From Planctomycetota bacterium (lineage in GTDB: Bacteria; Planctomycetota; UBA1135; GCA-002686595), in assembly GCA_029259635.1 (NCBI GenBank), contig JAJDEU010000001.1, forward strand, positions 62,001-126,000: a stretch of 64,000 bases of DNA, in the 5' to 3' direction. This document shows positions 28,196 to 63,659 of this stretch, one piece after another (within the stretch, counting starts at the first letter, position 1; every line of letters starts with the position of its first letter). A program made the translations under genes and the position numbers. The notes under the pieces are model-generated. The model made no database searches, was not told where the DNA came from, and worked only from the letters and a program-made list of their open reading frames with translations.

Positions 28196-31100
28196 ATGCA
28201 TCCCAGTATTCACCTCCTGCTCGCGGCGGGTCTACTCTTCCCGGGTGCACCTTTTCAAGCCGAAGATGACCAGCCAACGGTCGAGACTAGTGTTCTCGTT
28301 GGCGGTCAAGGGGGGCAGGGTGCAAACGGGGGGGCAAAAACGCCCGTTGTCGGCAATCAAGCAGGGTCCAAGCTGGGTCCGGGCAAAGGCCTGGGCGTTG
28401 GTGGTGCTAACGGGAACTTTGGAAAGCAGAACCCCAACGACAAGGCGATCAACGCGCTGCTCTTCAACGAGCACGCTCTGATCAAAGGCGGTTCGAACGT
28501 GTTCGGCGGCGAGGATGCCATCATTCGCGCGGGACCGTTCGAGATCATTCTGCCCGGCGAACCGTCGATCGTGACGTCCCCCGATCTCTTGCTCGTCACG
28601 CTGACCGACACGGCCTCTGGCAATGATGAGACCATCATCGTCGAGCTTCCGCCGACACTGGTTCGGGGCGATAAAGTGCCCATGTTGGTGGCCTTCCACA
28701 AGTGCTGCAACACGCAGTTCGACATCAGCGCGAATACGACCTTTCCGGCGGAAGCCCGAGCCCGTGGCTGGTTGCTGATGGCTCCGCTGGGAGCGTTCAA
28801 GCCGAACTTTTCCTCGCTTGCCAGCCAGTCCAACACAGAAGAAGCGCTCGACTTCGTTCTGAACCGATTCAGTAGCTATATCGATCTTGACCGGATCTAC
28901 GGCGTTGGTTTTTCCATGGGAGGGGGCTCTGCACTGAGCTTTGCGGCGCGCCATTTGGATCCGGCCAAACCGATGTTTGCGGCGCTGGTCAATCACACGG
29001 GCGGCCTCGACCTGATTAACACCTACGAGAATGAAGGGACCGGCATCCGGGACATTCTCGAGTTCCTCTTCCGGGGAACTCCCGGCGCTAAGCCGTTCAA
29101 TTATCAGCGCTCCTCCCTGGTAGTGAAGAGTGGCGGTCCCAACGGGTTCGACCCGGATGTGAGTATGGCGTGGAACCTCACCCATATTCCAATTCTCGAT
29201 GTGCGCGCGCAGTTCGATGAACCCGCTACGGCCTATCTCCTCGATCAGAACACGTTGTTCGAAACCGCGATGAGCCTGTTTGGGGGCATCGTCACCGTGG
29301 ACATCAAGCCTGGGGTCAGCGTGCACAATTGGAGCACCCTGCCCGAGAGTCAGGCGCTCGATTTTCTAGAGCAGTTCACTCTCGAGCTTCCGACGAGTGC
29401 CCATACTCTCGCGGACCGAGACGATCGATTCTTCTACTTCGATATTGTTCAGGACGCGCCGGACGCCTTTTCGCCGTTTACTTGGTCGATTCGGAGAGGC
29501 GCGAATGAGATTCGCTTCAGCGAAACCGCGAACATGTCGGAGATCCACTTCGACCCTTTTGAGGTGAAGCTAGACCCGAGTCAGACCTTGGTGGTCTGGA
29601 CCGACACCACCGATGGGATCGCGGATACGATCGTTCTTGAGGGCTTTCCGTTCCAACCCGTGGAGGTCCTGCGAGACGGTCTCGCGACCACCGCATGGTC
29701 TCACGACATTTCGACGAGCACGCTCTCGCTGAACGAGACCGATGGATCGGCCAATCACATCTGGCACGTGACTTCGCGGCAGGCCGCCTCCGATGTCGGA
29801 GTCTCGATCTTTATCGACGAAGCGAATCCGACCGAGGGCGACACGGTCGACCTTACGGTTGTTGCACGGAACTTCGGCCCGTCGATTACGAGTGGGGTCG
29901 AGGTCGCGAGCCTTCTGCCCACGGGCTTGACCTACGTCGGGAGCTCGGTGGATGTAGGAACCTACGAGGCGGGCACGGGGGTGTGGGAGCTCGGCTTGCT
30001 CGAGGCGCCCCAGATCGCGACTCTCGTCATCCAAGCAACCGTCGATGTGGGCACAGGCGGTCAGATGCTTCTCGGCTCGGCGGCGATGAGCGGCTTGACT
30101 CAGGTCGATCTCAATTCGGCCAACGATTCCGATTCGGTGGCTCTCACGGTCTCCAATGATGCGGACCTGGTCCTCACGAAAACCGTAGACAACGATCGTC
30201 CTAAAGAGGGGGAGCAGATCGTCTACACCCTCTCGGTGACGAACCTCGCTCCGGGTGCCCAAGTCAGCACCTTGACGATTAGTGATTCCCTGCCCGCTGG
30301 CGTGACGTACGTCTCGGACGTGGCCTCGCTGGGGTCGTACAGCGACGGCACGGGGATCTGGACGATCGGGACTTTCGATTCCGGCGCGACCGCGACTCTC
30401 GACATCACCGTCGCCGTTGATGTCGCAACCATCGCGCAGACGATCGTCAACAACGCCTCCGTCCTGACCTTCGATCAAAACGATCCCAACCTCACCAACA
30501 ACGCGGACTCGGCATCGATCTTGGTCGTCGATGATGTGGACTTCTCCGTTGGAATCGTCGTCGACGATGCGACGCCGAACGAACAAGACCAGGTCGTCTA
30601 CACGATTACCGTCACCAACGGTTCCGGCTCCATCGCCGGATCCGGAATCGAGCTCACCGACCTCTTGCCGGCCGGGGTTTCCTATGTCTCCGACGTTCCC
30701 AGCCAGGGGAGCTACTCAAGCATCTCAGGACTGTGGCAAGTGGGCGGCCTCGGAGCTGGCGCCAACGCAACGCTCGCGATCACCGCACAGGTCGATGTGG
30801 GTACCGGCGGGCAAGCGATCGTCAATTCGACGACTGCACTGAGCGCTGATCAACCCGACCCGAATGCGAGTAACGATTCGGATTCCGTCCAAATCGACGT
30901 CGATGACAACGCGGACCTCTCGGTCACCAAGGTGGTCGATGATGCGACGCCGATCGAACAAGCTCAGGTGGTCTACACGATTACCGTTGCCAACCCGAGC
31001 GGCGGCGCTCAGGCTACGGGTGTCTCGCTGGTGGACTTGCTGCCCGCGGGAGTGACCTACTTCTCCGACACTCCCAGCCAGGGCAGCTACGTCAGTGGCA

Positions 31101-34100
31101 CTGGCGTCTGGACTGTCGGCGTTATCGATGCGGGGAATGACGCAACGCTGGATATCACGGCGACCGTCGACGTCGGCTCCGCCGGAATGGCGATTGTGAA
31201 CACGGCATCGGGCTTACTCTCGGATCAACCGGATTCGAATGCGTCGAACGATAGCGACACGGCGCAGATCGACGTCTCCGACTTGGCGGACCTGTCCGTC
31301 TCGAAGGTCGTCGACGTGGGCTTCCCGGAGGTCAGCGACAGCGTCGTCTACACGATCACGATCTCGAATCCGCTCGGTGGGGCTCAGGCAACGAACCTTT
31401 CGCTTACCGATCTCCTTCCCTCCGGTGTGACCTACGTGAGCGATACGCCGAGTCAAGGCAGCTACGTCAGCGGGACGGGAGTCTGGACGATCGGCTCGCT
31501 CGCCAGCGGCGCGGTCGCAACGCTTGATATTACCGCCAGCGTCGACCCCGGCACGGTGGGCATGACGATCGCCAACACCGTCGCGGGTTTAACTCTCGAC
31601 CAGACGGATCCCAACGCGAGTAACGACACGGACATGGCGTCCTTCTTAGTCGTCGCGGATGTCGACCTGTCGATCACGAAAACCGTCGATGATGCGACTC
31701 CCTCCGAGCTGGGTACCGTGGTCTACACGATCACCGTCGCGAACACCTCCGGCACCGTGGCGGCATCCAATGTCAGCCTCGTCGACCTCTTGCCGAGCGG
31801 CGTCACTTTTGTCTCGGACAACCCGAGTCAAGGCAGCTACGTCGATGGCACCGGCGTCTGGACGGTCGGTTCCATCGCAGCGTCCTCGAACGCGACCTTA
31901 GATCTGACGGCCACGGTCGATGCCGCTACCGGCGGAACCATGATCGTCAATACGGCAAATAGCCTGGCCGCCGATCAACCCGACGCGAACGCAGCGAACA
32001 ACAGTGACTCGGTTCAGATCGACGTAGACAATGGCGCCGACCTCGCCGTGTCGAAGATCGTGGACGACGCGACCCCCGAAGTCGGCGACACGGTGGTCTA
32101 CACGGTCACGGTCTCGAATCCCGGCGGCGGAGCTCAGGCGACAACTGTTTCAGTGACGGACCTTCTGCCGAGCGGCGTGACCTATGTCTCCGATTCGCCG
32201 AGTCAAGGTACCTACGTCAATGGCACTGGCGTGTGGACGGTCGGCACGATCAATGCGGGCGCGAACGCTACGCTCGGCATCACGGTCACGGTGGACGCGG
32301 GGCAAGCGGGGAACCTGATCACGAACACGACCACGGCGCTGTCGCTCGATCAGGCCGACGGCAATGCGACGAATGACGTCGGGACCATCGGCATCAACGT
32401 CGTGCCCGACATCGATCTATCGGTCGTCAAGACGGTGGACGATGCGACGCCGAATGAGCAAGACACGATCGTCTATACGATCACGCTGACGAACAACGAT
32501 GCGAGCGAGGGCGCGACGACGATCACGTTGACCGACGTCCTGCCCGCAGGCGTGACTTATGTCTCCGACGTCGCGAGCCAAGGCACCTACGTCAATGGAA
32601 CCGGCGTGTGGACGGTCGGTACGGTCGCCGCGCTGGGCGTGGCGACACTCGACATCACGGTGACGGTCGATGTCGGAACCGGCGGCGACGCGATCGTCAA
32701 CACAACCTCGGCGCTCGGCTTCGACCAGACGGATACGAACGCGGCGAACGATGTCGGCTCGGTGCAGATAGATGTCGACAACGGCGCGGACTTGGCGGTT
32801 AGCAAGATCGTCGACGTCGCGACGCCCGAAGTCGGCGACACGGTGGTCTACACGGTCACGGTCTCGAACCCGGGCGGCGGAGCTCAGGCCACGACGGTTT
32901 CAGTCACGGACTTGCTGCCGAGCGGCGTGACCTATGTCTCGGATTCGCCGAGTCAGGGTAGCTACGTCAACGGCACCGGCGTGTGGACGGTCGGCACGAT
33001 CAATGCGGGCGCGAACGCGACGCTCGGCATCACGGTGACGGTGGACGCGGGACAAGCGGGCAACCTGATCACGAACACGACCACGGCGCTGTCGCTCGAT
33101 CAGACCGATTCGAACGCGACGAACGACGTCGGCACCATCGGCATCAACGTCGTTCCTGACATCGATCTCTCGGTCGTGAAGACGGTCGACGATGCGACGC
33201 CGAATGAGCAAGACACGATCGTCTATTCGATCACTCTGACGAACAATGATGCGAGCGAGGGCGCGACGACGATCACATTGACCGACGTCTTGCCCGCTGG
33301 CGTGACTTATGTCTCCGACGTCGCGAGCCAAGGCACGTACGTCAATGGCACGGGCGTGTGGACGGTCGGCACGGTCGCAGCGCTCGGCTCCGCGACACTC
33401 GACATCACAGCAACGGTCGATGTCGGAACCGGCGGCGACGCGATCGTCAACACGACCTCCGCGCTGAGCTTCGACCAGACGGATACGAACGCGGCGAACG
33501 ATGTTGGCTCGGTGCAGATCGACGTCGACAATGGCGCGGACTTGGCGGTTAGCAAGATCGTCGACGTCGCGACGCCCGAAGTCGGCGACACGGTCGTCTA
33601 CACGGTCACGGTCTCGAACCCGGGCGGCGGAGCTCAGGCGACGACGGTATCGGTGACGGACCTGCTGCCGAGCGGTGTTACCTACGTCTCGGACTCGCCG
33701 AGCCAAGGCACCTACGTGAACGGCACTGGCGTCTGGACGGTCGGCACGATCAATGCGGGCGCGAACGCTACGCTCGGCATCACGGTCACGGTGGACGCTG
33801 GGCAAGCGGGGAACCTGATCACGAACACGACGACGGCGCTGTCCTTGGATCAGACGGACGGCAATGCGACGAACGACGTCGGCACGATCGGAATCAACGT
33901 TGTCCCGGACATCGATCTCTCGGTAGTGAAGACGGTCGACGACGCGACTCCGAATGAGCAAGACACGATCGTCTATACGATCACTCTGACGAACAACGAT
34001 GCGAGCGAAGGGGCGACGACGATCACGTTGACCGACGTCCTGCCCGCAGGCGTGACTTATGTCTCCGACGTCGCGAGCCAGGGTTCGTATGTCAATGGAA

Positions 34101-35407
34101 CCGGCGTGTGGACGGTCGGTACGGTCGCCGCGCTGGGCATGGCGACACTCGACATCACGGTGACGGTCGATGTCGGAACTGGTGGCGACGCGATCGTCAA
34201 CACGACCTCCGCGCTGAGCTTCGACCAGACGGATACGAACGCGGCGAATGATGTCGGCTCGGTTCAGATTGACGTGGACAACGGCGCAGACCTCGCCGTG
34301 TCGAAAATCGTCGACGACCCGACTCCCGAAGTCGGCGACACGGTGGTCTACACCGTCACGGTTTCGAACCCGGGTGGCGGGGCGCAAGCCACAACGGTAT
34401 CGGTGACGGACCTTCTGCCGAGCGGCGTGACCTATATCTCCGACTCGCCGAGTCAAGGCACCTACGTCAACGGCACTGGCGTGTGGACGGTCGGCACGGT
34501 CAACGCGGGCGCTAATGCTACGCTCGGCATCACGGTCACGGTGGACGCTGGGCAAGCGGGGAACCTGATCACGAACACGACGACGGCGCTGTCGCTGGAT
34601 CAGACCGATTCGAACGCGACGAACGACGTCGGCACCATCGGCATCAACGTCGTTCCGGACATCGACCTCTCGGTCGTGAAGACGGTCGACGATGCGACGC
34701 CGAATGAGCAGGACACGGTCGTCTATACGATCACGCTGACGAACAACGACTCGAGCGAGAGCGCGACGACGATCACCGTCACGGACGTCCTGCCCGCGGG
34801 CGTGACCTACGTCTCCAACAATCCGAGCCAGGGTAGCTTTGCGAGCGGCACGGGCATCTGGACTGTCGGCACGGTCGCAGCACTCGGCTCGGCGACACTC
34901 GGCATCACCGTCACGGTCGATGTCGGAACCGGCGGCGACGCGATCGTCAACACGACCTCGGCGCTGGGCTTCGATCAGACGGACACGAACGCGGCGAACG
35001 ACGTCGGCTCGGTTCAAATCGACGTCGACAATGGCGCGGACTTGGCCGTGAGCAAAGTCGTCGACGACTCGACGCCCGATGAGCTTCAATCGATCGTCTA
35101 CACGATCACGGTCTCCAATCCGAGCGGTGGTGCGCAAGCGACGACGGTCTCGCTGACGGACGCTCTGCCCGCTGGAGTCACTTACTCCTCGGACACGCCG
35201 AGCCAAGGAAGCTTTGCGAGCGGTTCAGGCGTCTGGACGGTGGGGACCATCAACGCGGGTTCGAACGCAACGCTCGCGATCACGGTCTCGGTCGATAGCG
35301 GAACCAGCGCGACGATGATTACGAATTCGACGTCGGGTCTCTCGTTGGATCAGACCGACGGGAACAGCGCGAATGACATCGGGTCGGTGACGGTCACCGT
35401 CAACTGA
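28196..35407 (+). CDS. Giant exported protein: alpha/beta-hydrolase head plus 15 DUF11-type repeats
   Basis: 2403 aa. Residues 1-22 are a signal peptide (LLLAAGLLFPGAPFQA). A Gly-rich linker with GGQGGQGANGGAK covers about 35-95. Residues about 115-400 form an alpha/beta-hydrolase domain like PHB-depolymerase/feruloyl-esterase (LVAFHKCCN oxyanion region; nucleophile Ser240 in GVGFSMGGGSA; late His in VHNWSTLP). A linker domain covers about 400-530. From residue 533 run 15 DUF11/TIGR01451-type Ig-like repeats: the first 124 aa, the next 13 exactly 125 aa (375 bp), the last 122 aa. Each has YTITV, LLPSGVTYVSD, SQGSYV, GTGVWTVG and DQTD landmarks. Repeats 7-14 alternate two types in a 750-bp unit. 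There is no C-terminal anchor or sorting motif. A long secreted or surface stalk carrying an esterase is the likely picture. Confidence 0.85.
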   Translation: MHPSIHLLLAAGLLFPGAPFQAEDDQPTVETSVLVGGQGGQGANGGAKTPVVGNQAGSKLGPGKGLGVGGANGNFGKQNPNDKAINALLFNEHALIKGGSNVFGGEDAIIRAGPFEIILPGEPSIVTSPDLLLVTLTDTASGNDETIIVELPPTLVRGDKVPMLVAFHKCCNTQFDISANTTFPAEARARGWLLMAPLGAFKPNFSSLASQSNTEEALDFVLNRFSSYIDLDRIYGVGFSMGGGSALSFAARHLDPAKPMFAALVNHTGGLDLINTYENEGTGIRDILEFLFRGTPGAKPFNYQRSSLVVKSGGPNGFDPDVSMAWNLTHIPILDVRAQFDEPATAYLLDQNTLFETAMSLFGGIVTVDIKPGVSVHNWSTLPESQALDFLEQFTLELPTSAHTLADRDDRFFYFDIVQDAPDAFSPFTWSIRRGANEIRFSETANMSEIHFDPFEVKLDPSQTLVVWTDTTDGIADTIVLEGFPFQPVEVLRDGLATTAWSHDISTSTLSLNETDGSANHIWHVTSRQAASDVGVSIFIDEANPTEGDTVDLTVVARNFGPSITSGVEVASLLPTGLTYVGSSVDVGTYEAGTGVWELGLLEAPQIATLVIQATVDVGTGGQMLLGSAAMSGLTQVDLNSANDSDSVALTVSNDADLVLTKTVDNDRPKEGEQIVYTLSVTNLAPGAQVSTLTISDSLPAGVTYVSDVASLGSYSDGTGIWTIGTFDSGATATLDITVAVDVATIAQTIVNNASVLTFDQNDPNLTNNADSASILVVDDVDFSVGIVVDDATPNEQDQVVYTITVTNGSGSIAGSGIELTDLLPAGVSYVSDVPSQGSYSSISGLWQVGGLGAGANATLAITAQVDVGTGGQAIVNSTTALSADQPDPNASNDSDSVQIDVDDNADLSVTKVVDDATPIEQAQVVYTITVANPSGGAQATGVSLVDLLPAGVTYFSDTPSQGSYVSGTGVWTVGVIDAGNDATLDITATVDVGSAGMAIVNTASGLLSDQPDSNASNDSDTAQIDVSDLADLSVSKVVDVGFPEVSDSVVYTITISNPLGGAQATNLSLTDLLPSGVTYVSDTPSQGSYVSGTGVWTIGSLASGAVATLDITASVDPGTVGMTIANTVAGLTLDQTDPNASNDTDMASFLVVADVDLSITKTVDDATPSELGTVVYTITVANTSGTVAASNVSLVDLLPSGVTFVSDNPSQGSYVDGTGVWTVGSIAASSNATLDLTATVDAATGGTMIVNTANSLAADQPDANAANNSDSVQIDVDNGADLAVSKIVDDATPEVGDTVVYTVTVSNPGGGAQATTVSVTDLLPSGVTYVSDSPSQGTYVNGTGVWTVGTINAGANATLGITVTVDAGQAGNLITNTTTALSLDQADGNATNDVGTIGINVVPDIDLSVVKTVDDATPNEQDTIVYTITLTNNDASEGATTITLTDVLPAGVTYVSDVASQGTYVNGTGVWTVGTVAALGVATLDITVTVDVGTGGDAIVNTTSALGFDQTDTNAANDVGSVQIDVDNGADLAVSKIVDVATPEVGDTVVYTVTVSNPGGGAQATTVSVTDLLPSGVTYVSDSPSQGSYVNGTGVWTVGTINAGANATLGITVTVDAGQAGNLITNTTTALSLDQTDSNATNDVGTIGINVVPDIDLSVVKTVDDATPNEQDTIVYSITLTNNDASEGATTITLTDVLPAGVTYVSDVASQGTYVNGTGVWTVGTVAALGSATLDITATVDVGTGGDAIVNTTSALSFDQTDTNAANDVGSVQIDVDNGADLAVSKIVDVATPEVGDTVVYTVTVSNPGGGAQATTVSVTDLLPSGVTYVSDSPSQGTYVNGTGVWTVGTINAGANATLGITVTVDAGQAGNLITNTTTALSLDQTDGNATNDVGTIGINVVPDIDLSVVKTVDDATPNEQDTIVYTITLTNNDASEGATTITLTDVLPAGVTYVSDVASQGSYVNGTGVWTVGTVAALGMATLDITVTVDVGTGGDAIVNTTSALSFDQTDTNAANDVGSVQIDVDNGADLAVSKIVDDPTPEVGDTVVYTVTVSNPGGGAQATTVSVTDLLPSGVTYISDSPSQGTYVNGTGVWTVGTVNAGANATLGITVTVDAGQAGNLITNTTTALSLDQTDSNATNDVGTIGINVVPDIDLSVVKTVDDATPNEQDTVVYTITLTNNDSSESATTITVTDVLPAGVTYVSNNPSQGSFASGTGIWTVGTVAALGSATLGITVTVDVGTGGDAIVNTTSALGFDQTDTNAANDVGSVQIDVDNGADLAVSKVVDDSTPDELQSIVYTITVSNPSGGAQATTVSLTDALPAGVTYSSDTPSQGSFASGSGVWTVGTINAGSNATLAITVSVDSGTSATMITNSTSGLSLDQTDGNSANDIGSVTVTVN
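32039..35038 (+). repeat. Four tandem 750-bp super-repeats (two DUF11 types, A-B)
   Basis: Units begin at 32039, 32789, 33539 and 34289, each of exactly 750 bp and encoding one A repeat (starting DLAVSKIVD) plus one B repeat (starting DLSVVKTVDDATPNEQD). The copies are nearly identical at the DNA level, with many shared synonymous codons. The fourth B unit is the most diverged. This indicates recent duplication or continuing gene conversion of the 750-bp module. Confidence 0.9.
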
Positions 35408-61528: not shown

Positions 61529-62488
61529 CTAGAGCGCGAGCTCGTTCAGCAGTGCGCGCCAAGCTTGGCTCTCGCTCTGCGGCGTGAAGGCGACCGCGAT
61601 TCGCTCGCTGCTTGCCAGTAGACGGCCATAGAACTTCGCATCCGACTCCGCCCGCCACAGGAGCTGAGCGAGGGCATCGGTCTTGCCGAACTCGAAATAG
61701 CCCGGGTGGCGCGCTCCCAGCAAGCCCCGATTGCCAGGCACGTCGGTCGCCAGGATTCCGACGCCCGCCGTTGCGGCCTCTCCGATGACATTGGCTCCGC
61801 CCTCGAGCCGCGAGGAGATCACCAGCAGTCGGCTCGCGGAGAGCAGCCGCATCGCGTCTGGGTGAGCGCGCTCTCCGAGCCACTCGTAGCGCGGATTACT
61901 CTTCGACTCTTGAATCGCGCGAGCTTCAAGTCTCGGTTCGAGCGCGCGGCCGAGATGACGAACGAATAGCTTCGATTCCGCGGGCAGTACACGTGCAGCC
62001 AGGGCGGTTCGCAGTGGGTCTTTGACCGCTCGCAGATGACTGAGCACGCAGACGTCAAAACGATTCTTGGCCGGAGTTCGGAGGCGCTTGGGCAAGCGCA
62101 CGGACTGATGGATGATCCGCGTCTTGCGCCGGACTGCTTTGGGTAAATCGAGCTTGGCCTGGGAGTGCAGGACGATCAGGCGATCCGCCAGCTCGAGCGA
62201 GCGCTTTGCCGCTCGGTTCCCCTCGGTTAGGTCTTTGTAGAGATCCGTCCCGGTCAGAGCGACGACCAGTGGACGCTCGGGAAAACGCCGCTTGAACTCC
62301 GCGGCGGCGGCGGCGCTGCGCCTGGCATGAAGAGCGACAAGGACCTCGGGGTTCCCCTTGAGCTCCGGCGCGAGGGTCGCGCGGTATCCCAGCTCGCGTA
62401 GAATGCGAGCCCAGCGCAACGCGGTCACGCGATTGCCCTGCGTCGATCCAGCCGGGGCTGGGCAAGCCAGCTGAATCTTGCGCTGCAT
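61529..62488 (-). CDS. senB: SenB-type selenosugar synthase (TIGR04348 glycosyltransferase)
   Basis: 319 aa from the ATG at 62488, which has GGAAGGA about 7 bases upstream; the frame to 62692 is longer but runs into the selD region. GT4-like fold: N-terminal PAPAGSTQGNRVTALRWARI (about 11-30), LVALHARRSAAA (about 50-61), VVALTGTDLYKDL (about 75-87), and the C-terminal nucleotide-sugar site SRLEGGANVIGEAATAG. These motifs match what I know of SenB of selenoneine biosynthesis, which uses selenophosphate and a UDP-sugar to make a selenosugar. Divergent from selD, 118 bases apart, which would supply selenophosphate. No SenA-like gene is seen. The family is likely but rests on motif recall. Confidence 0.75.
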   Translation of the reverse strand: MQRKIQLACPAPAGSTQGNRVTALRWARILRELGYRATLAPELKGNPEVLVALHARRSAAAAAEFKRRFPERPLVVALTGTDLYKDLTEGNRAAKRSLELADRLIVLHSQAKLDLPKAVRRKTRIIHQSVRLPKRLRTPAKNRFDVCVLSHLRAVKDPLRTALAARVLPAESKLFVRHLGRALEPRLEARAIQESKSNPRYEWLGERAHPDAMRLLSASRLLVISSRLEGGANVIGEAATAGVGILATDVPGNRGLLGARHPGYFEFGKTDALAQLLWRAESDAKFYGRLLASSERIAVAFTPQSESQAWRALLNELAL

Positions 62489-62606
62489 GTCTGTATCCTT
62501 CCGCCTGATCTCTTCCGATCCAAGCATCCCGTTCAAGATGTGTTGCCGGAAGAGCTTGGAAGAACTCACCCACGTTTCGGGCAGAGACCCGACTCCTCGA
62601 TCCATC
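62489..62606. promoter_or_regulatory. Divergent promoter region senB / selD
   Basis: 118 bases between the start codons of the SenB-like gene (minus) and the full-length selD (plus). It must carry both promoters and possibly a common operator. No clear palindrome is seen by eye. Confidence 0.5.
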
Positions 62607-63659
62607 ATGTCCGAAATCAGACTGACGCAGCTCGTTCCAGCCGGCGGCTGAGCACGTAAATTTGGTGCGGAGGACCTCGTGCAGGTTCTCAAGAAAATTT
62701 CGCCCTTCGATCATTCGTGGATTGACCAAAACGTCGGATCCATGGACGACGCAGCGCTTCTGCGTCCCGACGGAATCGACCAAGGCTTCGTCTTCACTGT
62801 CGACTTCATCACGCCGCTGGTGGATGACCCCTATGCCTTTGGTGCGATCGCTGCCGCGAACTCGATCTCTGACGTCTATGCGATGGGTGGGCGCCCGCAG
62901 GTTGCGCTCTCTCTGTGTGGATTTCCCGACGACCTGGTCTCGAAGGAGCGCCTGGGCGAGATCCTGAAGGGCTGCCGTGACAAAGCCGCAGAAGCGGGCG
63001 TCGCCATCGTGGGTGGCCATACCGTCATCGACCCGGAGATGAAGATCGGTCTGTGCGTGCTCGGAACGGTCGATCCCAAGCGAGCGTTTCGTCAGACCGG
63101 CGCGAAGCCCGGCGATGTGCTGGTGCTCTCCAAGCCGATCGGTACCGGCATTGCCGCGCAGGGGATGAAGAAGGACCTCTTGACTCATGAGCAAATCGAG
63201 CGCGCGATTGCCTCGATGTCGATGCTCAATGCGGGCGCTTGCGAAGCCGCTCTAGCGGTGGGAGCGCAGTCGGCGACCGATGTGACGGGCTTCGGATTGC
63301 TGGGGCACCTCCACAACATCGTGATGGCGTCCGGGTGCTCCGCGCGTCTCGATCATAGCGCTGTGCCCGTCTTTGAGTTCTCGCGCGAACTCGCGCACCA
63401 GGGCGTCATTCCCGGAGGCACGAAGCGCAACCTCGAGTTCGTCGGGCCATTCGCGACCTTTGACGATTCGATCGAGCCCGCAGAGCGCTTGATCCTGGCC
63501 GACGCGCAGACTTCGGGCGGCCTCTTAATCGCCTGTCCACCGGACAAGGTCGACGAACTGGTCGCCGGCCTGTCCGCCGAAAACTGCCTCGCGGCAGCCG
63601 TCGTCGGAGAGGTACTCGAAGGCCGCGCCGGCTCGATTCATGTCAGCGCGGCCGACTAG
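62607..63659 (+). CDS. selD: Selenide, water dikinase; selenocysteine-containing, in-frame TGA
   Basis: Makes selenophosphate from selenide and ATP for Sec-tRNA, selenouridine or SenB. True start is the ATG at 62607; the TGA at 62649-62651 is read as selenocysteine. Translation: MSEIRLTQLVPAGG, then U15, then ARKFGAEDLV, running into the open frame from GTG 62679. Total 350 aa, the normal SelD length. U15 and K18 sit with the same spacing as the catalytic Cys17 and Lys20 of E. coli SelD. Further SelD motifs: VGSMDDAALL (about 43-52), ISDVYAMGG, VGGHTVIDPEMKIG, SATDVTGFGLLGH, QTSGGLL. A start at GTG 62679 would lose the catalytic site. A SECIS-like hairpin follows the TGA. Divergent SenB neighbour. 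Confidence 0.92.
62649..62682 (+). promoter_or_regulatory. Candidate bacterial SECIS element with its UGA
   Basis: Begins with the selenocysteine TGA (62649-62651). GCACG (62652-62656) pairs with CGTGC (62678-62682); GGT (62664-62666) pairs with ACC (74-76 of the same block, 62674-62676) and leaves an apical loop GCGGAGG about 16-22 nt past the UGA, the distance expected for a SelB-bound bacterial SECIS. The asymmetric internal loop is unusual and the fold was drawn by eye. Confidence 0.55.

Follow-up and report, generated by a model that had tools for sequence, protein, structure and literature searches.

The locus under study raises two questions: whether an in-frame TGA near the start of a selD gene is read as selenocysteine (Sec), and which selenium pathways the enzyme would then supply. 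The window, by which we mean the whole stretch of 64,000 nucleotides that was analyzed, corresponds to C1:62001-126000 of a 5.5-Mb Planctomycetota genome that is 89.5% complete. Elsewhere in the window, a very long ORF of 2403 amino acids occupies 28196-35407 on the + strand.

An in-frame TGA occupies the catalytic position of selD

The ORF list of the window, made with translation table 11, gives an ORF of 326 amino acids at 62679-63659 with a GTG start. As the first-pass annotation had stated, this frame lacks the SelD N terminus, and reading from ATG 62607 through a single TGA restores it. With TGA 62649-62651 read as Sec, the protein has 350 residues and begins MSEIRLTQLVPAGG-U15-ARK18; it matches TIGR00476 with 332 bits (cut-off 125) over model positions 1-310 of 311. 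The earlier remark that U15 and K18 are spaced like the catalytic Cys and Lys of this family also holds, as U15-A-R-K18 fits UxxK (catalytic Sec, then Lys), the motif given for selenophosphate synthetase in Table 1 of PMC13188914. The features of the gene are as follows.

62607-63659, + strand: selD, predicted Sec-containing selenophosphate synthetase; 350 codons plus TAG; TIGR00476; AIRS and AIRS_C domains
62649-62651, + strand: TGA, predicted Sec codon 15 at the catalytic position of UxxK; G021 and most of the relatives retrieved have it in the same position
62658-62660, + strand: AAA, Lys18 of UxxK, from the sequence and its translation
62679-63659, + strand: shortened ORF with a GTG start, expected from a table-11 gene caller (ORF list)

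Standard gene calling would shorten the protein, as had been predicted, since the table-11 ORF begins at GTG 62679 and contains neither U15 nor K18. Standard annotation would thus remove the active site of a key enzyme, which for selD is a known case. Judged by its sequence, the gene is that of a Sec-containing selenophosphate synthetase (SelD); selenophosphate production by its product is predicted from the family match and UxxK, and we infer that Sec is inserted at U15 in vivo.

The TGA is kept in relatives

An initial scan of named genomes with SelD found no relatives. The closest relative found, G021, belongs to the same family as the window genome; its SelD is 70% identical to that of the window and keeps the TGA. 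Before the TGA, 5 of 14 codons differ between the two genes, changing one amino acid only, and over the whole gene dN is 0.23 and dS is 1.27. SelD matches at E <= 1e-18 were obtained in 58 of 61 genomes (the window's own included), and 53 of the 58 contain an in-frame TGA, by a row count over the 61 genomes searched. Five had no reported TGA: two carry Cys at the site (L026 and L041), one has a TGA upstream of the reported match (L044), one lacks the N terminus (L040), and the fifth, from G012, was not fetched. One match, L036 (the SelD of G022), holds one TGA and one TAG. In the alignment of N termini that had been proposed as a check, the homologues keep the N terminus and have U or C at the TGA site.

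A SECIS-type hairpin lies downstream of the TGA

The bSECIS rule, as given in the excerpt available from PMC13188914, specifies a loop of 3-9 nt with G within the first two positions, a stem of 4-16 bp, a spacing of 16-37 nt, and an MFE <= -7.5. A hairpin with these properties (5-nt loop, 8 bp, spacing 26, -10.7 kcal/mol) is present in the window gene, and a conforming hairpin as stable appeared in 0 of 500 dinucleotide shuffles.

62670-62690, + strand: SECIS-type hairpin; 8-bp stem 62670-62677/62683-62690, loop CGUGC at 62678-62682, 26 nt after the TGA
62652-62668, + strand: weak 4-bp stem immediately 3' of the TGA; pairs 62652-62655/62665-62668

The first-pass annotation had described a hairpin of SECIS layout beginning directly after the TGA. 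Its presence downstream is borne out; its position is not, because only the 4-bp stem lies there, probably not the SECIS element itself, and the SECIS-like element is at 62670-62690. Folding of 62640-62700, which had been suggested as a check, was unremarkable (z -0.77, equaled by 45 of 200 shuffles), and an Rfam scan of the window returned only a tRNA.

The hairpin is kept in G021. Among codons for identical amino acids, 6 of 7 inside it are unchanged between the two genes versus 114 of 231 outside, and with p 0.06 this codon conservation is not significant. At -5 kcal/mol or better, a line of our own choosing, a hairpin of this kind was found in 32 of 36 distinct Sec-SelD genes and also in 3 of 5 Cys-SelD genes.

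The genome encodes the Sec machinery and markers for three uses of selenophosphate

The prediction that selA, selB, and selC would be found elsewhere proved correct: the genome contains selA (488 bits), selB (363.5 bits with its neighbors in frame), and tRNA-Sec (71 bits; reported by ARAGORN as tRNA-SeC). It also holds mnmH, for selenouridine (245.9 bits, cut-off 219.75), and, on another contig (C30:3971-5209), senA (465.6 bits, cut-off 420). Together with senB, these are markers of three selenophosphate uses, namely Sec, selenouridine, and selenoneine. One SelD exceeds the cut-off in the genome; at 89.5% completeness, a second could be missing.

These data bear on two readings in which the TGA does not encode Sec. 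If it were a real stop or a sequencing error, the protein would start at GTG 62679 without the catalytic loop; the one point in favor is that translation with table 11 yields this shortened ORF. The form so obtained would contain neither U15 nor K18, however, and the TGA recurs in an independent genome behind a conserved N terminus, as well as in most relatives, alongside Sec machinery in the window genome; we therefore regard a stop or error as very improbable. A reassigned code, with TGA read as another residue, has nothing for it except the open frame, and SelA, SelB, and tRNA-Sec are present and the TGA stands at a catalytic position where homologues have Cys. We judge reassignment unlikely, even more so than a stop or error.

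selD is divergent from senB

A feature absent from the first-pass annotation is the neighbor of selD, a divergently oriented senB.

61529-62488, - strand: senB, divergent neighbor of selD, encoding the selenosugar synthase for selenoneine; TIGR04348 354 bits, cut-off 300
62489-62606, no strand: 118-bp region between the start codons of the divergent senB and selD
62048-62050, - strand: codon for Cys in SenB (FDVCVLSHLRAVK); five SenB genes of Poribacteria have TGA at this site

The gene order in G021 is selD(-) senB(+) senA(-), and in Candidatus Anammoxibacter (L080, the same locus as L249) senA, senB, and a Sec-SelD gene follow one another on one strand. The Anammoxibacter row is in itself a selenoneine cluster with a Sec-containing SenC. 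SelD occurred within the fetched flanks of 3 of 52 SenB loci of the phylum sample (window, G021, and Anammoxibacter) and of 13 of 80 named SenB loci, two of the latter being the same G021 and Anammoxibacter genes. At these 13 named loci the adjacent SelD has TGA at the Sec site in 10 and Cys in 3, all three from Pseudomonadota. Because SelD is uncommon near SenB, the neighborhood alone gives weak support for shared use.

Most SelDs listed for the family share 39-45% identity with that of the window. A tree of 42 SelDs placed the window and G021 sequences on a branch of their own (100/100) and united 27 of 28 further SelDs, drawn from the same family and order, in one clade (99/96) that excludes them. 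The 28th, L041, is a long-branched Cys form that falls apart from this clade, and the fork below is weakly supported (90/77). The remaining senB-adjacent SelDs were scattered over several branches of this tree, in which the SenC of Variovorax paradoxus was not included. These placements suggest that the inherited SelD of the family was replaced by a senB-linked one.

The preferred reading is that the window gene encodes a Sec-SelD that supplies selenophosphate generally and also acts as SenC in selenoneine synthesis, and we consider this highly probable. It draws on features of the sequence: the frame, the TGA, the hairpin, the Sec machinery, the neighbor, and the single SelD. With selenium available, SelB would deliver Sec-tRNA to UGA codon 15 with the aid of the downstream hairpin (spacing 26 nt), and the complete enzyme, with U15 and K18, would convert selenide and ATP to selenophosphate; without Sec-tRNA, translation would end after 14 residues. 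The enzyme would then supply Sec-tRNA and tRNA selenouridine and, as SenC, feed SenB and then SenA. Such shared use for Sec, selenouridine, and selenoneine is most likely because this SelD is the only one over the cut-off in the genome and adjoins senB.

A dedicated SenC is the main competitor. Here, the Sec-SelD of the window would supply selenoneine synthesis alone, with Sec and selenouridine left to a second SelD encoded in the tenth of the genome that is not assembled; adjacency to senB, separation in the tree from the SelDs sampled from the family and order, and a genome completeness of 89.5% all speak for this. Against it, no second SelD over the cut-off was found in the window genome (G000), and G021, 90% complete, has one full SelD, its second match being only 29% identical and confined to residues 66-185. 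We hold a dedicated SenC to be unlikely and retain the dual-role Sec-SelD.

SenB genes of relatives carry an in-frame TGA at two sites

The SenB genes of 15 relatives contain a single in-frame TGA at one of two sites; 8 are from Planctomycetota, 5 from Poribacteria, and 2 from Latescibacterota. In the window's family, SenB was matched at E <= 1e-40 in 49 of 81 genomes, and 9 of these 49 SenBs have one in-frame TGA. Eight of the nine TGAs come shortly after a conserved Gln-Ser in the interdomain loop (loop site; genes L088, L201, L109, L202, L203, L204, L200, and L188), distributed over genera g5 (two), g26 (four), g33 (one), and g24 (one partial gene, G023). Another g24 genome, G453, has Cys where G023 has TGA. 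Latescibacterota (the phylum of L236) have SenB in 5 of 64 genomes, two of them with the loop TGA (L306 and L307; QSFTUPP and QSCTUPP). SenB is present in 15 of 84 genomes of Poribacteria (the phylum of L247), and in five (L288, L289, L297, L298, and L300) the TGA is at a strand site, FEV/I-U-V, just before HLRxVK.

Of the 144 SenB genes that could be placed (of 159), 84 have Cys at the strand site and 3 have TGA there; Cys homologues are few at the loop site. In an alignment to PDB chain 8jjq_C, the loop and strand sites fall at R136 and V149, counted by hand; the excerpt available from PMC10891094 assigns residues 131-145 of V. paradoxus SenB to a connecting loop and identifies residue 158 as the key lysine. 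Three other TGAs share no site and were treated as noise: those of L119 (the SenB of G016) at residue 26, L229 at residue 169, and L250 at residue 4 of the stretch that was aligned. The single TGAs of L119 and L229, at such unshared positions, may reflect error or decay.

The SenB TGAs show signs of readthrough

In six SenB pairs compared, dN was below dS after the TGA in every case (one dS before the TGA was not computable). A pseudogene reading of the TGA-SenB genes was rejected on this ground, and on the grounds that there is one TGA per gene and that the frame is open on both sides.

Hairpins following the SECIS rule were stronger downstream of a TGA than at the corresponding positions of SenBs that lack one: p was 1e-7 for 7 TGA versus 137 other SenBs at the loop site (2e-6 when GC-matched; L187 and L188 lie outside the 7) and 1e-4 for 3 versus 141 at the strand site. 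Relatedness among the genes and the post hoc choice of some limits mean that these p values overstate the difference; the spacing limit of 30, the loop limit of 7, and the arm length were chosen after the sequences had been viewed. Only this local hairpin test, and not whole-region folding, separated TGA from non-TGA SenBs. Even with the best constrained folds, the whole regions did not surpass shuffles, 8 to 29 of 60 of which folded equally well (two stray TGAs included).

The five Poribacteria TGA-SenBs use the same codon throughout at four hairpin positions, R-P-V-K, compared with 12 of 163 other amino-acid-invariant codons in these genes (p 6e-5); a fifth hairpin codon varies, and counting it in gives p 3e-4. 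The exact hairpin core is present in 5/5 Poribacteria TGA genes and 0/7 of the others read (three more were unread). In Latescibacterota, the hairpins are either weak or, judged by eye, have a spacing of 10.

selB exceeded the cut-off in 10 of the 12 TGA-SenB genomes tested (three others lay outside the test) and was not found above it in G025 and G023, both of which have a TGA-bearing SelD. As it was also found in 17 of 20 genomes without TGA-SenB, selB permits Sec decoding of SenB and neither discriminates nor supports it. We consider it very likely that SenB is a selenoprotein family unlisted so far, with two alternative Sec sites, one in the loop after Gln-Ser and the other in the strand before HLRxVK.

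Discussion

Sec-containing SelD has long been known: the excerpt available from PMC1794560 has a 2006 table that lists 38, and that from PMC4561486 treats the form as established knowledge. The selD of the window is therefore ordinary by itself. Gene order and the one-SelD genome, however, tie a Sec-SelD to selenoneine synthesis, and SenB is indicated as a selenoprotein in three phyla. Neither SenB nor a glycosyltransferase appears in Table 1 of PMC13188914, a 2026 listing of prokaryotic selenoproteins in a review that counts 119 families or subfamilies; a term search of PMC12013277 returned neither; and the literature searched, which excluded the original sen-cluster report and supplements, yielded no SenB described as a selenoprotein. 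The work on senB and its product points, then, to a probable unlisted selenoprotein family in the selenoneine pathway.

If this is true, selenium activation and the use of selenium for selenoneine would in such bacteria both rely on enzymes that depend on Sec decoding, and the selenium-inserting enzyme would itself require genetically encoded selenium in the vicinity of its catalytic lysine. A Sec codon in SenB would tie its synthesis to selenium supply, and the SenB selenol, near the lysine that cleaves Se-P, might serve as a selenium carrier or in protection of the site. A tentative guess, which we consider doubtful, is that selenoneine synthesis runs only when selenium is plentiful, gated by Sec decoding. 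Questions would also arise as to how the C-Se bond is formed and how selenium is split among proteins, tRNA, and small molecules.

Comparison with known systems

With SelD/SPS2 (TIGR00476), the window protein shares a near-full model match, the catalytic Sec, and a Lys three residues on, together with a rule-fitting downstream hairpin and Sec machinery in the genome. It differs in that its gene adjoins senB rather than lying in a selA/selB operon, and in its separate tree branch. Like SenC of the V. paradoxus senABC cluster, as described in the available part of PMC10891094, it is a SelD-type protein encoded beside senB; unlike in that cluster, senA is in the same genome but on another contig (C30). 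The three senB-adjacent SelDs of Pseudomonadota have Cys, whereas the window SelD is predicted to have Sec. Finally, the neighboring gene product shares EGGANV and HLRxVK, the catalytic Lys position included, with SenB (TIGR04348; PDB entries 8fbx and 8jjq). It has Cys at the strand site; in the SenBs of 15 relatives, a TGA stands in the interdomain loop or just before HLRxVK.
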